From Salinicoccus halitifaciens (GTDB lineage: Bacteria > Bacillota > Bacilli > Staphylococcales > Salinicoccaceae), in the NCBI RefSeq assembly GCF_021026095.1, contig NZ_JAJNCU010000001.1:744001-808000 (forward strand): a DNA stretch of 64,000 nt. The letters run 5' to 3'. The notes beneath the pieces were generated by a model. That model searched no databases and was not told the DNA's origin. It saw only the letters and a list, made by a program, of their open reading frames with translations. How positions within the stretch are numbered: the first letter of the stretch is position 1; the number at the start of each line of letters is the position of its first letter. Below are positions 18,965 through 59,296 of this stretch, in pieces. Both the position numbers and the translations under genes were made by a program.

Positions 18965-19085
18965 TTACATCCCGGAGATGCGCATGACATCCCTTGCGAT
19001 CATCACTTCCTCGTTCGTCGGTATGATGAGGATCTTCACCGGGGAATAAGGATAGTTGATGAATTTTTCCTTGCCTCTCACATCA
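18965..19085 (-). pseudogene. ackA: Orphan 3' end of ackA left at attL
   Basis: Read on the minus strand, these bases encode the last 39 codons or so of acetate kinase ([19 protein letters not shown], then [19 protein letters not shown] and a stop). The upstream body is now at 58227-59296. The sequence is the native chromosomal C-terminus; the intact gene across the prophage ends instead with a phage-supplied IADIPRG. It has no start codon and should not be translated. Confidence 0.92.
19023..19085. other. attL core of the prophage
   Basis: These 63 bases are identical to 58164-58226. The left neighbour is chromosomal (ackA 3' end), the right neighbour is prophage. Upstream of the core the two copies still match closely for some 15-20 bases with substitutions, as expected for homologous ackA ends from two sources. 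Confidence 0.93.
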
Positions 19086-19453: not shown

Positions 19454-20548
19454 TTAAATTATTACATCGTGCCTTTTTTTAAGGTCAGCAATATCTACTT
19501 CAGCACTATTATAGAGATGGGTAAAATACTCTGTAAAGGCATTGCTTGGAGCTTTTCTGATATCATGTAACAATAAGTTGAATATATCCGCAGACAATTG
19601 TTTAGTGTGGCTAGCTTCATATCTACTATAATGCATTCCTTCATGAACTATATTATTTCTATATTGAAAAGAAGTTTCTTTATATCTTTTGACCATATCG
19701 ACTAACAGATCTGCATTCTTTAAATTTAGGTCATCAAATAACCTTATAAAATGATGATCCACATGCTTACTAAACTCCTTCTTTTTTTCAAGATTCTCTA
19801 TCTTATGCTCTGGTTTCCATTTCATCAATCTATAGCATTCAACAATAAAGTGTTGAACATAAATCTCCATAGAGGTTTGGAAGTATATTATAGCTTGATT
19901 AAAGTCTTCTTCACGATTAGCTTTTTCACCTCTTCTGCCGTAAATAATGTGCATATGCAGTGGATGATTTTTAAATGTATTATAGTTCTGTATTGAGTTT
20001 TCTAATTCTGCAGCAGTAAACTTCTTCTGATGAATTTTAGTTAGATATTCGTTGTTCTTAATGAAAAAAGGGCCCAACAATTTCGGCTTTTCTTCTTCTT
20101 TATAAATCATATATTCTGGAATCCCTACTATCTTGTTTAAAGAGAGGTATTCAATATTATAAAGGTTATGCATAACTAGGAGCACTTGACAATAATCATT
20201 TAAAACATTTAATTGATGATCAAATTTTTCAGAAGTTATATCATCAGAGGTAGTAGATTTTTTCCTCATTTCTCTAATCATATTGTCACTTTTCTTTTTA
20301 GTAAGTGGTAGTGTCGCCTCAACAACAGTATGTCTCATCAGATTATCATCTAGAGGAAATTCTCCTTTAGCATAGTGTTTATAAACCCTATGTAAAAAAG
20401 TGAACAATACACCGTCTAACTCTATATGAGTTGCTCCTGTGAACGGTAATCGAAATGGAATCATATACCTGAATGTTATAAAGTAATTATAATCTGGAAA
20501 GTTTTTTTTAAGATATTTATAGTGCTTATTTTCATAAGAGTAAAACAT
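19454..20548 (-). CDS. HEPN-motif protein, putative defence or abortive-infection RNase
   Basis: The 364-residue protein has a large N-terminal region without recognised motif and a helical C-terminal half (from about residue 215, QAIIYFQTSMEIYVQHFIVECYR). That half contains FQYRNNIVHEGMHY: Arg297 and His302 form the R-4x-H signature of HEPN RNases. The layout resembles ApeA-like and other HEPN abortive-infection proteins. AAGGTGAT precedes the ATG. It is located in the cargo zone between endolysin and attL, has its own extended -10 promoter, and is followed by a 48-residue gene. HEPN assignment is by motif and helix pattern only. Confidence 0.6.
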   Translation of the reverse strand: MFYSYENKHYKYLKKNFPDYNYFITFRYMIPFRLPFTGATHIELDGVLFTFLHRVYKHYAKGEFPLDDNLMRHTVVEATLPLTKKKSDNMIREMRKKSTTSDDITSEKFDHQLNVLNDYCQVLLVMHNLYNIEYLSLNKIVGIPEYMIYKEEEKPKLLGPFFIKNNEYLTKIHQKKFTAAELENSIQNYNTFKNHPLHMHIIYGRRGEKANREEDFNQAIIYFQTSMEIYVQHFIVECYRLMKWKPEHKIENLEKKKEFSKHVDHHFIRLFDDLNLKNADLLVDMVKRYKETSFQYRNNIVHEGMHYSRYEASHTKQLSADIFNLLLHDIRKAPSNAFTEYFTHLYNSAEVDIADLKKRHDVII

Positions 20549-20796: not shown

Positions 20797-21381
20797 TCAT
20801 ATTACATTTAATTTTAACGCCTTTTCTAAATCAAAGCTTGGTTTAGCATCTAACTTTTTGTCTTTTGATATTTCACCTCTAAATACGGCTAAAACCTCAC
20901 ACAAATTAGTTTTGAGCTTAACAGTCCTTGCATTGAATATTGAGGACGGAACATAAAATTCTTTAGTATATCTAAGACCCAACAGTAAAAAGTTTTTTCG
21001 CTTTAAAGATTTTTCAAATTCTGCATGAAATAAAGTTAATTGATTATCAACTACCCTCATTTGACATGTATTTAAGAACTTAATATCCTTTATAACTTGT
21101 AATTTTAATTGAGTAGTTCCATCTTTTTTGATGTCCACTTTATCTAAATCTAAGTTGTTGTGGGATAATGCATTATAGAACTCCTTAGGGCTAATCCTAC
21201 CTTTATGATAATAGTTCACCCCACATAAATGCATGAAATTACTACTGCGAAAATCTACTTTTAAATATTTATATTTATTTTTATCACCAACATAAACATA
21301 AATCAAAGGTTCTCCTATTAATTGGTCATAGTATGAATGAGCCTCTTTTATTGTTTCAAGATCTTTCTTTTTTAACTTCAT
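20797..21381 (-). CDS. Putative PBECR4-type RNase, toxin of a type III-like TA module
   Basis: The 194-residue protein (ATG at 21381, AGGAG 11 nt upstream; a GTG 12 nt earlier is possible) has no membrane helix. The segment YKYLKVDFRSSNFMHLCGV, then FYNALSHNNLDLDKV, fits the PBECR4 family (phage barnase-EndoU-ColicinE5/D-RelE-like nucleases), which keeps F-x-HLxG followed by an FY..L helix. Candidate catalytic residues are His51 and downstream Lys/Arg. The gene lies directly behind a strong promoter, two tandem RNA repeats and a terminator, exactly as in type III toxin-antitoxin loci. It does not look like ToxN/AbiQ. Family call moderate; context strong. Confidence 0.65.
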   Translation of the reverse strand: MKLKKKDLETIKEAHSYYDQLIGEPLIYVYVGDKNKYKYLKVDFRSSNFMHLCGVNYYHKGRISPKEFYNALSHNNLDLDKVDIKKDGTTQLKLQVIKDIKFLNTCQMRVVDNQLTLFHAEFEKSLKRKNFLLLGLRYTKEFYVPSSIFNARTVKLKTNLCEVLAVFRGEISKDKKLDAKPSFDLEKALKLNVI

Positions 21382-21402
21382 TACTACAACCACTCCTATA
21401 TA

Positions 21403-21430
21403 ATAAAAAAAGAGGGGTTTCCCCCTCTTC
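21403..21430 (-). terminator. Terminator between RNA repeats and the RNase gene
   Basis: The stem AAGAGGGG/CCCCTCTT with a GAAA-like loop is followed by seven T on the minus strand, 9 bases before the toxin ribosome site. In type III systems a leaky terminator here sets the excess of RNA antitoxin over toxin mRNA. Confidence 0.9.
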
Positions 21431-21444
21431 TATATAAGATCCTA

Positions 21445-21550
21445 GTTTTTCTGTTGCCTGCCAACTAACGAGCCCTTAAGTCTCGCATTAATTTTAGGTT
21501 TTTCTGTTGCCTACCAACTAGTGAGCCCTCAAGTCTCACATTAATTTCAG
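21445..21550 (-). repeat. Two tandem 53-bp direct repeats
   Basis: Units 21445-21497 and 21498-21550 match at 47 of 53 positions. They are the repeat core of the candidate antitoxin RNA. Confidence 0.95.
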
Positions 21551-21588
21551 GTTATTATCAGGAGCTAGGCCTCCTTATTACTAATATT

Positions 21589-21618
21589 ACTATAGCACTT
21601 TATTTAAATAACTGTCAA
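21589..21618 (-). promoter_or_regulatory. Strong sigma-A promoter of the RNA-RNase module
   Basis: On the minus strand: consensus -35 TTGACA, an 18-nt spacer ending in TGC, and -10 TATAGT (extended -10). It is among the best promoters in the prophage and lies just upstream of the repeats, so the RNA should be expressed in the lysogen. Confidence 0.85.
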
Positions 21619-21649: not shown

Positions 21650-21711
21650 TGAGATCTATAATGTACTTAAGTAGAGGTTTGAACCTCTACTTAAGTACAT
21701 TATAGATCTCA
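21650..21711. repeat. 62-bp perfect palindrome (30-bp arms, 2-base centre)
   Basis: The arm TGAGATCTATAATGTACTTA... is matched without error for 30 bases around a TG centre. It lies between the endolysin gene and the module promoter. Transcripts through it would form a very stable hairpin, followed on the minus strand by a T-rich stretch. It may insulate the late lysis transcript from the module. The rest of 21712-21820 holds a 9-bp hairpin (AGGAGTACA/TGTACTCCT) and no gene. Confidence 0.95.
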
Positions 21712-54462: not shown

Positions 54463-54960
54463 CCTCTCACTATACTGTATCAATAAGTCTGGTTTTAGAA
54501 AGAGTTTGTCGTAAATCGGGTGAAAAGAGTAATATTACAATGAATTTTAGAACGCTTGTCTATTTTATATAGACAAGTGTCAAAAAAGTACCTCTCACTA
54601 TACTGTATCAATAAGTCTGGTTTTAGAAAGAGTTTGCGTGGTTTTAGGTCAGAAAGTGTAATATTACAATGAATTTTAGAACGCTTGTCTATTTTATATA
54701 GACAAGTGTCAAAAAAGCACCTCTCACTATACTGTAGCATTAAGTCAACTTTTGGCGAAGGTTTGTCGTAATTCGGAGTGAATAGTATAATATTACAATG
54801 GGTTTTAGAGTTCTTGTATGTTTTATATAGACAAGTATCTAAAAAGCACCTCTCACTATACTGTAGCATTAAGTCAACTTTTGGCGAAGGTTTGCGTGGT
54901 TTTTGGTCAAAAAGTGTAAAAAGTTTATGAATTTAGAGATGCTTGTATAGAAAAAACATA
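54463..54960. repeat. Four 128-129-bp tandem repeats with hairpins, no gene
   Basis: Units begin at 54463, 54591, 54720 and 54849 with CCTCTCACTATACTGTA. Each ends with TTTTAGA...CTTGTCTAT-5 nt-ATAGACAAG, a perfect 9-bp hairpin in units 1 and 2, altered in 3 and partial in 4. Between lie two variable blocks: block A is shared by 1+2 and by 3+4, while block B is shared by 1+3 and by 2+4. Unit 3 holds a plus-strand promoter, TTGTCG-17-TATAAT (54763-54791), starting just before its hairpin. A minus-strand frame through units 1-3 exists because 129 is divisible by 3, but lacks a ribosome site. Flanked by terminators on both sides. Confidence 0.9.
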
Positions 54961-56939: not shown

Positions 56940-57962
56940 TTATTTTACATATCTTCTGTGTGATCTAATATTTCTTCTAGTTTTCACTTTGTTTTCTTTC
57001 AAAATATTTAGAGGTGAGTGCTTCGCTTGATTCCGTATGTTCTTCACCTCATCTATGTGCAGATAGATTTCTGTGACTGATATATCTGAGTGACCCAAAT
57101 AATATTGAAGTGTTTTTAATGATCCTTTTTGCTCCATAAAAGCAGTTGCCGCTGTATGTCGGAACATATGATTAGTGATATGTTGCTTCACACCTGCTCT
57201 TTTCAGACACTTCTCTAAGTGAGCACCAAATGAATCTCGCTTGAGAGGATTACCAACATTCGTAAGGAATATTCTCCCCTCATTCTTAGTGAAGCTCTCA
57301 TTGTGATCTAATAGCCTATCTACTAAATCAATTGTCTTCTGAGACACTGGTACACTTCTGAATAAGCTATTCTTTGTTTTGTTGAAAGTAACGATATTTC
57401 TATCAAAATCAATATCATCTTCAGTAAGCTCTAATACTTCACTTACTCTTCCGAATGATTCTAAAAATAAATGAATCGCTGTGAGCATCCTTAAGTCTGT
57501 GTAGTATCTTTCATCCAAAGATTTGATTAGTTTATTCAGCTCACTCGGTTTGATCACTTTAGGACTCTGCTTTTGATATTTCAGCTGGTTAATATCTCTG
57601 AATACATCGTGTTTAGACTTGATGTAACCCAGTTCTAGAAGGACTGTGTAAGCTCCTTTTGTGAGTGTGAGGTAGGTATTCACACTTCTGCGAGCTAATC
57701 CAACTTTGCTACTTCTATTCTTATCTCCTCTGAAATGAGGTTTGTCATTCAACAAATAATCTAAGTAGTCGTATGCATCCTCAATTGTTAAGTCTTTTAC
57801 ATATCCATCATCAAAGAAATAAATGAGTTCATTCAACGCTTTGATATAGTTATCTGCTGTTTCTTTTGAGGTTGTACCCAATTTCTGAGAGTAGACAATT
57901 TCTTTCATATCGCTAAATCTAATGGCAGCTGGCTTCTTTGATTTTCTTCTTTTTAAAGACAA
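56940..57962 (-). CDS. Tyrosine recombinase (phage integrase)
   Basis: Joins attP and attB in ackA. The N-terminal SAM-like DNA-binding domain covers residues about 20-110. The catalytic domain has Arg in FGRVSEVLEL, HMFRHTAATAF (H-x-x-R), LGHSDISVTEIYLHI (His and the Tyr nucleophile). A TTG at 57962 lies 8 nt after GGAG and gives 340 residues; a GTG 9 bases upstream overlaps the ribosome site. It is adjacent to attR, with arm-type repeats between. Confidence 0.93.
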   Translation of the reverse strand: MSLKRRKSKKPAAIRFSDMKEIVYSQKLGTTSKETADNYIKALNELIYFFDDGYVKDLTIEDAYDYLDYLLNDKPHFRGDKNRSSKVGLARRSVNTYLTLTKGAYTVLLELGYIKSKHDVFRDINQLKYQKQSPKVIKPSELNKLIKSLDERYYTDLRMLTAIHLFLESFGRVSEVLELTEDDIDFDRNIVTFNKTKNSLFRSVPVSQKTIDLVDRLLDHNESFTKNEGRIFLTNVGNPLKRDSFGAHLEKCLKRAGVKQHITNHMFRHTAATAFMEQKGSLKTLQYYLGHSDISVTEIYLHIDEVKNIRNQAKHSPLNILKENKVKTRRNIRSHRRYVK

Positions 57963-58004
57963 AAAAATCACTCCTCATCAAAAATTTGATAAAAAGTGAT
58001 TAAT

Positions 58005-58096: not shown

Positions 58097-59296
58097 CTAA
58101 CCCCTTGGTATATCAGCAATCCTCATCACATCTCTAACTATTTCAATCTCCTCATTCGTCGGGATGATGAGGATCTTCACCGGGGAATAAGGATAGTTGA
58201 TGAATTTTTCCTTGCCTCTCACATCATTCAGTGATTTATCGAAATAAACACCCATGAACTCGAGGCCTTTCAGCACTTTTTCGCGTATTATGTCGGAATT
58301 CTCGCCGACGCCTGCCGTGAAGATGATCGCATCAAGTCCGCCCATCCTCGTTGCATAGGACCCCATGTATTTGTGGATCCGTTCGCCGAAGACATCCAGT
58401 GCGAGTTCGGCACGCTGATTGCCTTTCCTCGCCTCTTCTTCGATATCGCGGAGGTCGCTTGAAAATCCGCTGACCCCGAGGAGGCCGGATTCTTTATTCA
58501 GGACGTTCAGCACTTCCGTTGCGGTTTTCCCGGTCTTTTCCATGATGAACGGGATGAGCGCGGGGTCCAGGTTCCCGGAGCGGGTCCCCATCGTGACGCC
58601 GGCAAGCGGCGTGAAGCCCATGGACGTGTCTATCGACTCCCCGCCCTTCACAGCTGCGATGCTCGCGCCGTTGCCGAGGTGGCAGCTGATCAGCTTCAGT
58701 TCCTTCAGCGGCCTGCCGAGCATCTCACTTGCCCTCTGGGTCACATACTTATGGCTTGTGCCGTGGAAACCGTACTTCCTGATGCCGTATTCCTTGTAAT
58801 AATCGTAAGGCAGACTGTACAGATATGAGCTTTCCGGCATCGTCTGATGGAAGGCGGTGTCGAATACCGCCACATGGGGCACATCCGGAAGGTGCTCCAT
58901 AAATGCCCTGATGCCCATCAGGTTGGCCGGATTATGGAGCGGTGCGAGTTCACTCAGGTTCTCGATCTTCTCCACCACTTCATCCGTAATCAGTACAGAG
59001 TCATCAAAACTCTCACCGCCGTGGACCACCCTGTGGCCCGAGCCGACGATCTCATTGATGTCGGCGACCGCACCATGTTCAACCAGCTCTTCCAGCATGA
59101 GGTCGACCGCTTCTTCATGCGTCTCAAAATTCCGGTTCCTGGTTATCTTCTCACCGCCGACCGTAATGGTGAACACACCATTATCCATGCCGATCCGTTC
59201 GACCAGCCCTTTGGCGATCTCAGTTTCTTCGGGCATTTCAAAAAGCTGGAATTTGAATGAGGAGCTTCCTGCGTTGACCGCTATAATTTTAGCCAC
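58097..59296 (-). CDS. ackA: Acetate kinase with phage-supplied C-terminus
   Basis: Interconverts acetyl phosphate + ADP and acetate + ATP. Motifs: [42 protein letters not shown]. The 399-residue length is normal. The reading frame crosses the attR core, and the last 20 codons (58097-58163, ending [13 protein letters not shown]) come from the phage and replace the native end now stranded at attL (ending [10 protein letters not shown] type). Function should be kept. The 3' untranslated region and terminator are also changed. Confidence 0.97.
58164..58226. other. attR core of the prophage
   Basis: These 63 bases are identical to the attL core. The left neighbour is phage-derived ackA 3' sequence and the right neighbour is the chromosomal ackA body. 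Confidence 0.93.

Follow-up and report, generated by a model that had tools for sequence, protein, structure and literature searches.

The window, by which we mean the whole 64,000-nucleotide stretch of Salinicoccus halitifaciens DNA that was analysed, carries on its minus strand, in this order, a promoter-like site, a 5′ hairpin, two 53-nt units, a terminator and a gene for a 194-aa PBECR4 protein. The RNA promoter TTGACA-18-TATAGT, already proposed in a preliminary description of this DNA, was located at 21618..21589 (−), with 11 of 12 positions matching and a TG ahead of the −10 element; by itself this match is weak proof, because the region holds no more such matches than its shuffles (9 against a shuffle mean of 9.6, i.e., not enriched). 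The 5′ hairpin B0 (21561..21574, −) has the loop L0 (CCTAG, 21565-21569), whose partner is a receptor at the 3′ end, S3 (CTAGG, 21441..21445, −). Unit 1 (21551-21499, −) begins with the receptor S1 (CCTG, 21548-21551), followed by hairpin A1 (21521-21539) and hairpin B1 (21506-21518) with the loop L1 (TAGG, 21510-21513), and unit 2 (21498-21446, −) is built alike from S2 (CCTA, 21495-21498), A2 (21468-21486) and B2 (21453-21465) with the loop L2 (CAGG, 21457-21460); each unit ends in an A-rich linker. Tandem Repeats Finder (TRF) reported a repeat at 21445-21553 with a period of 53, 2.1 copies and a score of 176. A rho-independent terminator with 10 pairs and a T-run (21431..21408, −) separates the RNA from the toxin gene (20797..21381, −; ATG at 21381, stop at 20799-20797), and terminator-like sites number six in the region against a shuffle mean of 1.2. 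The tandem 53-nt repeats and the terminator followed by a 194-aa gene are thus as they had been described beforehand.

The two units of the window differ at 6 of 53 positions. Hairpin A holds two of them, which together turn a U-A into a C-G pair and so compensate each other, and a third is a G-C to G-U change, which agrees with the hairpin-preserving substitutions claimed earlier. Two more form a second compensatory pair, a receptor G/A with a loop U/C, in which the pairing runs between the units, and the remaining one falls in the loop of hairpin A. Five of the six differences therefore lie at paired positions, and four of them make up two compensated pairs, one of which spans the units. This second pair, and the crosswise loop-receptor code that joins the units and the ends of the RNA, had been missed in the preliminary description.

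A 63-bp direct repeat (19023-19085 and 58164-58226) delimits the prophage in which the module lies, and the right-hand copy of this repeat falls inside the 3′ part of an acetate-kinase-like ORF (58097-59296). An integrase-like ORF (56940-57971; both ORFs were named by eye) is found in the prophage, and the RNA-toxin module occupies the end opposite to it. The prophage end away from the integrase is a usual site of genes that benefit the lysogen. A single-protein scan of viral contigs matched one locus only, an identical stretch in a 38,998-base contig of IMG/VR. Several other features were observed in the prophage region. The endolysin gene and the promoter of the RNA are separated by a near-perfect inverted repeat with almost 30 bp per arm (21650-21709), perhaps the terminator of the lysis operon; a 12/12 promoter match (21726-21699, −) overlaps this repeat. 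After the toxin, at the prophage end, follows a 364-aa ORF (19454-20548, −), possibly a second lysogen-benefit gene, whose sole strong match is phrog_37158, of unknown function (1.3e-26). A tandem array with a period of 129 and 3.6 copies is present at 54463-54919 within the prophage.

In a Pfam profile search, the window protein matched PBECR4 (PF18813) with an E-value of 7.4e-21 and 75.8 bits against a curated cut-off of 27, no second Pfam family matched it convincingly, and the PBECR4 profile matched all 31 clade members. Pfam includes a ToxN model, and no ToxN-type profile was present among the matches of the window protein up to E 10, nor in 25 of the 26 Pfam families listed for the 31 clade members up to E 1. 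Both the resemblance to PBECR4 and the non-ToxN nature of the protein, as put forward earlier, are borne out by these searches as far as the Pfam matches listed go, and Abi_2 (AbiD/F) is likewise absent from the matches listed for the window protein and the 31 clade members. PHROGs returned families of unknown function only, PADLOC found nothing in the window, and NCBIfam gave a single weak and irrelevant match. An AlphaFold2 model computed with the 31 clade members reached a pLDDT of 90.1 and a pTM of 0.86. In this model, H51, invariant in 31 of 31 clade members, lies in a predicted helix (46-52), and residue 147, which is Ser in 30 of the 31 and Thr in one, lies in a predicted strand (143-150). 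Passages of PMC5512222 describe the active-site configuration of most PBECR families as a His in a helix and a Ser/Thr in a strand; the window protein matches this His-in-helix and later-strand Ser/Thr configuration in its predicted structure, and H51 and S147 are likely to be its active-site pair. The PDB was searched with a profile of the toxin, which gave 0 matches, and with Foldseek and VIA-align, which gave no clear match; ToxN was absent from the matches listed, and a Helicobacter pylori toxin chain (4lsy) scored a Z of only 2.0. Two BFVD entries matched the toxin model (E 4e-12 and 1e-11). Since no solved structure matched clearly, the assignment of a BECR fold rests on the Pfam classification. 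The protein is a predicted endoribonuclease toxin.

To place the locus among its relatives, PBECR4 loci were gathered by family and protein searches. The first set comprised 81 loci, mostly solo genes, with the window counted twice (L001 and L002); TRF repeats of 53-55 nt occurred in the 600 nt upstream of 17 of them, all belonging to one kind of PBECR4. A single-protein scan of genome contigs returned nothing, whereas alignment-based scans reached further: those of the RNA-linked PBECR4 kind yielded 53 loci, 51 of them on contigs of GTDB and the other two, both new, on viral contigs. These are not independent, as L117, L116 and L120 equal L033, L034 and L036, respectively, and near copies are numerous among the Streptococcus and Enterococcus rows. 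Repeats of 51-56 nt were detected by TRF upstream of the toxin in 39 of the 53; the downstream side, examined as a control, had such a repeat in L120 and a 44-nt repeat in L115, and no other. R1, a covariance model built from 34 RNAs of these loci, detected the RNA in 47 of the 53, the matches on its own 34 source RNAs being so by construction. No RNA was detected by R1 at L146, L153, L155, L157, L161 and L162. Of these, L161 appears to be on the same contig as L205 (G930), where about 4 kb, with frames that by eye look transposase-like and mercury-resistance-like, separates the RNA from a truncated toxin downstream of it; L155 resembles this arrangement by its coordinates. Because homologues carry the RNA at 47 of 53 sub-clade loci, we take the original observation as confirmed: the type III-like layout recurs in homologues and is thus more than chance.

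The proposed search of homologues for upstream repeats singled out one PBECR4 sub-clade that has them, the other branches examined being without. A tree was computed from the 69 proteins that remained after 100 unique sequences of 150-300 aa had been thinned at 90% identity; in it, all 30 RNA-bearing rows fell in one 34-row branch with a support of 97/97, and none of the remaining 35 rows had the RNA. The RNA label required 4 changes on this tree against a mean of 22.9 after shuffling, and 0 of 500 shuffles were as low. Within the branch, the RNA-less rows are L083, L111, L153 and L162; the contig of L111 starts 43 nt upstream of the toxin frame, and L083, L153 and L162 are long branches of unsure placement. 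No such RNA was found in the other solo PBECR4 branches (L004-L010, L018-L027 and L093-L108), and polyvalent-type PBECR4 loci gave no R1 match. The lack of the RNA in other PBECR4 branches indicates that RNA control is not general to PBECR4; the module is a co-inheritance of the RNA with one toxin clade. Its flanking signals recur as well. A promoter match of at least 9/12 was found within 60 nt upstream of the RNA at 27 of 34 loci, against 12% of mononucleotide shuffles, and a simple terminator followed the RNA at 29 of 34, against 0.4% of shuffles; among the five misses, three close Streptococcus rows (L132, L137 and L139) appear by eye to have a hairpin with one mismatch.

The hosts of the sub-clade include Sporosarcina, Planococcus, Listeria, Enterococcus, Streptococcus and several Lactobacillaceae, and also the Pasteurellaceae Mannheimia, Lonepinella and Actinobacillus. 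PBECR4 matches were found in 96 mobile-element records (5 phage and 91 plasmid), and the RNA was present in 9 of the 10 plasmid or phage loci inspected among them; the tenth, L216, encodes a long polyvalent-type protein and has no RNA. One of the plasmids is an Avibacterium replicon of 4,345 bp, and an Enterococcus faecium plasmid with the module also has vanA and mer genes. The PBECR4 protein was found in 1 of 33 genomes of the window's own family, namely this one, and the RNA in 2 of 157 genomes of its order, one of which (G005) is without PBECR4. In a class-wide sample, the RNA was present in 7 of 398 genomes, and PBECR4 adjoins it in only two of the seven (G000 and G472).

Each unit of the RNA thus consists of a 5′ receptor (S), hairpins A and B, and a loop code (L), and the codes pair crosswise, S1 with L2 and S2 with L1, while the loop of the 5′ hairpin (L0) pairs with the 3′ receptor S3. 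These three helices were suggested by reading the first loci and were then counted on 34 distinct RNAs (35 chosen loci minus the exact duplicate L126, with near copies, the truncated L136 and the one-unit L017 left out), which were aligned with MAFFT without structure, the columns being fixed from the window sequence. The results showed that all four positions are Watson-Crick pairs in 34 of 34 RNAs for both S1-L2 and S3-L0, and in 30 of 34 for S2-L1, where the other four RNAs each have one G-U; the ends of the 34 RNAs were picked by eye with the hypothesis in mind, which may flatter L0-S3. There are 19 distinct code sets, with 6 S1, 9 S2 and 9 S3 sequences. S1 and S2 differ in 13 of these sets, of which 12 pair completely in the crosswise manner and none does so within the unit, which rules out that the codes pair within their own unit. 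When the loops were shuffled among the 19 sets, the observed totals were never reached (0 of 10,000 per helix).

Eight further RNAs had their ends set by R1, which includes none of the loop-receptor pairs; they derive from the ten plasmid or phage loci, minus L208 (a near copy of L145) and the RNA-less L216. S1-L2 and S2-L1 are each full in seven of the eight and S3-L0 in six, the exceptions being L209 (S1 and L0 unrecognisable), L213 (S2-L1 3/4) and L210 (one G-U in S3-L0). In six of the eight, crosswise pairing is complete for both units and within-unit pairing is not. Five more RNAs with R1-set ends (L144, L121, L119, L116 and the second copy in L118) have full S1-L2 and S3-L0; in the same columns, S2-L1 is full in the second copy of L118 only; L144 and L121 have a G-U there, and L119 and L116 a mismatched pair. 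The Streptococcus family supplied 15 distinct RNAs that are toxin-less or toxin-split, and all three helices are full in 11 of them and incomplete in L187, L198, L200 and L201. The two-unit code columns do not fit the one-unit RNAs of L017, L159 and L165.

A second covariation count was made on an alignment (A3) of hairpins A and B together with S1-L2 and S2-L1. Paired cells amounted to 91.8% against 69.8% in shuffles, changes on both sides were seen in 25 of 26 pairs, and the covariation score was 0.617 against 0.224; four of the five measures were reached by 0 of 500 shuffles and the fifth (pair types) by 1 of 500, and sliding the pairing partners abolished the signal. Hairpins B1 and B2 are paired in all 34 RNAs, and hairpin A pairs less well in A3 (76.5% and 80.1%), perhaps owing to its variable length. 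The covariation test suggested in the preliminary description therefore gave a strong signal, both in the 34-RNA code counts and in the A3 shuffles. The minimum-energy fold of the window RNA includes all three loop-receptor helices, and its energy is no lower than those of shuffled sequences (z −0.09); thermodynamic stability was accordingly dropped as evidence, and the structural case rests on covariation, from which the putative antitoxin RNA is predicted to be pseudoknotted. Other identities for the repeats were considered. Coding repeats were ruled out, the periods of 51-56 nt often not being multiples of 3. At the gathering score, Rfam 15 gave no family in the window and, at 12 RNA-bearing loci, nothing but a tRNA in L033. 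With the limit relaxed to E 10, the top-scoring models were those of microRNAs, which fell on the long inverted repeat next to the RNA and were taken as chance.

The natural variants of the locus bear on how the RNA may act. At most loci the RNA lies directly upstream of the gene with a terminator between, an arrangement that would suit a cis-acting leader, i.e., a structured RNA that attenuates transcription of the nuclease gene without contacting the protein. However, L116 (Caryophanon latum), L120 (Planococcus ruber) and L209 (a Ligilactobacillus salivarius plasmid) have an RNA that is encoded on the other strand, downstream of the toxin; the first two form sister rows in the tree (as L034 and L036), and L209 comes from a different bacterial family. 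Moreover, intact-looking RNAs occur with no toxin nearby. In the Streptococcus family, 48 RNA places were found in 46 of 295 genomes, and 20 of these, picked since no PBECR4 had been seen beside them, were inspected: 18 had no tblastn match to nine toxins within about 4.1 kb, and the other two were L205, with its displaced truncated toxin, and L206, whose sequence is short and uninformative. Most of these toxin-less RNAs are near-identical to toxin-linked ones, which limits any inference that selection maintains them. The downstream opposite-strand RNAs and the toxin-less RNAs together indicate that the RNA is not simply a leader. A third variant also speaks against a leader: L017 has two one-unit RNA elements (2069-2213 and 2364-2501, −) about 200 nt apart, and all four pairings (GGTGGG/CCCACC, CTTG/CAAG, CCTG/CAGG and CAAG/CTTG) link the two, which suggests that assembly could also join separate elements. 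We therefore regard action as a cis leader as very unlikely. The three convergent loci, in which the RNA is oriented towards the toxin gene's 3′ end, would be compatible with a type I-like antisense RNA that pairs with the toxin mRNA and blocks its translation; yet RNA and gene stand in tandem on the same strand at most loci, and the conserved pairings are internal to the RNA, so that this mode of action seems highly improbable.

A further alternative is that PBECR4 and the RNA form an active ribonucleoprotein in which the RNA directs or activates the nuclease. Nuclease-RNA pairs of this kind exist, and the conservation of RNA and protein together would fit such a cofactor or guide, but no variable spacer or target-like segment was seen, and the variation of the RNA is largely compensated. 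Furthermore, L159 and L165, the only loci of the 53 in which a unit has been lost, have short, broken-looking toxin frames, so that damaged RNA accompanies apparently damaged toxin, and the order of RNA, terminator and gene is that of type III loci as treated in parts of PMC5086642. A guide or cofactor role is in our judgement unlikely. Within the sub-clade, toxins are rarely without the RNA (6 of 53), whereas RNAs are often without a toxin, and this asymmetry is the one expected of a toxin and its antidote.

We therefore propose, with a probability of roughly 0.8, that the locus is a prophage-borne, type III-like toxin-antitoxin module in which the PBECR4 toxin is neutralised by direct binding of an RNA that forms a two-unit ring. 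The computed basis of this proposal is the layout, the co-inheritance of the RNA with one toxin clade, the covarying RNA structure, the PBECR4 membership and the conserved His/Ser pair. Transcription from a single promoter would mostly end at the terminator and yield a non-coding RNA of about 150 nt, and read-through would give the mRNA of the PBECR4 endoribonuclease, for which we infer RNase activity and toxicity. The RNA would bind the nuclease directly and keep it inactive, closing as a two-unit ring in which each unit offers its 5′ receptor to the hairpin loop of its partner and the loop of the 5′ hairpin pairs with the 3′ end. The two units would probably hold two toxin molecules (a 2:2 stoichiometry). 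If the supply of RNA fails, for instance when a phage takes over transcription or when the prophage or plasmid is lost, the longer-lived nuclease would be freed, a trigger that would serve phage defence or maintenance of the element.

According to parts of PMC5086642, type III loci fall into three families and consist of a ToxN homologue with tandem repeats and a terminator ahead of it. The present module shares with ToxIN, CptIN and TenpIN (AbiQ) a tandem-repeat RNA, a terminator, a nuclease gene and a pseudoknotted RNA, and with CptI and TenpI the number of about two repeats; passages of PMC12373285 give 50 nt × 2.1 for TenpI and 45 nt × 2.1 for CptI. The repeat of 53 nt is therefore longer than the known ones, as the preliminary description had it, though by a slight margin given the 50 nt of TenpI. 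In CptIN, two proteins and two RNAs assemble into a ring, according to part of PMC4627078. In contrast to these three systems, the toxin here is PBECR4, for which no match to a ToxN profile was seen, the RNA is closed by a 5′ hairpin and a 3′ receptor that stand apart from the units, the codes that link the units crosswise are often not the same in both, and in some loci the RNA is convergent to the toxin. The identified type III systems besides ToxIN (AbiQ, TenpIN and CptIN) are homologous to ToxIN in the passages of PMC12373285; the present module would be type III-like by mechanism, the toxin sequence giving no support for descent from the ToxN superfamily.

Two further systems resemble it in part. 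As passages of PMC12373285 describe, AbiF/RCd22 of a Clostridioides difficile prophage has a two-motif RNA, active in cis and in trans, that binds and neutralises a toxic protein; a prophage RNA with two repeated motifs is common to both, whereas the AbiF protein is an Abi_2 protein linked to Cas13 and the RCd22 motifs measure 33 and 35 nt. AvcID, termed a novel type III system in part of PMC10511110, likewise combines an RNA antitoxin (AvcI) with a non-ToxN-like toxin, a likeness by description; AvcD is a deoxycytidylate deaminase, unlike the predicted RNase of our module. The PBECR domains of phage and polyvalent proteins belong to the same predicted-RNase clade and share the His and Ser/Thr and the mobile-element context; the passages of PMC5512222 on them mention solo PBECR proteins, there with no RNA partner, and do not use the name PBECR4. 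No system like the PBECR4-RNA module was found in the literature searched on PBECR4, PBECR and type III toxin-antitoxin systems, a scope that excludes preprints and most subscription journals.

AbiF and AvcID indicate that RNA can restrain toxins beyond the ToxN kind, and a type III layout with a PBECR nuclease would, if true, add another independent case. To our knowledge, it would be the first RNA-neutralised toxin with this predicted RNase fold, and the solo PBECR4 clade found on phages, plasmids and chromosomes would gain a likely function. Whether the module is, beyond this, an independently recruited RNA-neutralised lineage with a PBECR nuclease, whose antitoxin is a closed pseudo-two-fold ring of two units with reprogrammable four-base codes, we hold to be an evenly balanced question. 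In that reading, as each receptor fits the loop of the other unit, the ring would close only with both units and would likely present two toxin sites at once. Such code-matched closure would represent a compact natural example of RNA units with programmable loop-receptor recognition, and compensated drift of the codes between species could set which RNAs co-assemble. The toxin-less RNAs of Streptococcus-family chromosomes may be anti-addiction copies directed against incoming toxin-bearing elements.

Some additional RNA copies were observed. The toxin-less RNAs of L187-L204 occupy various sites, some beside transposase-, bacteriocin- or transporter-like frames (by eye). L118 has a second complete RNA (1664-1812, +) about 0.9 kb upstream of the toxin-linked one, and no PBECR4 frame was seen between the two. 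One-unit RNAs without a toxin were found in L221, L223 and L225 (read on the match strand); judged by eye, S1 pairs with its own loop and L0 with the 3′ end in L221 and L223, and L225 pairs differently.
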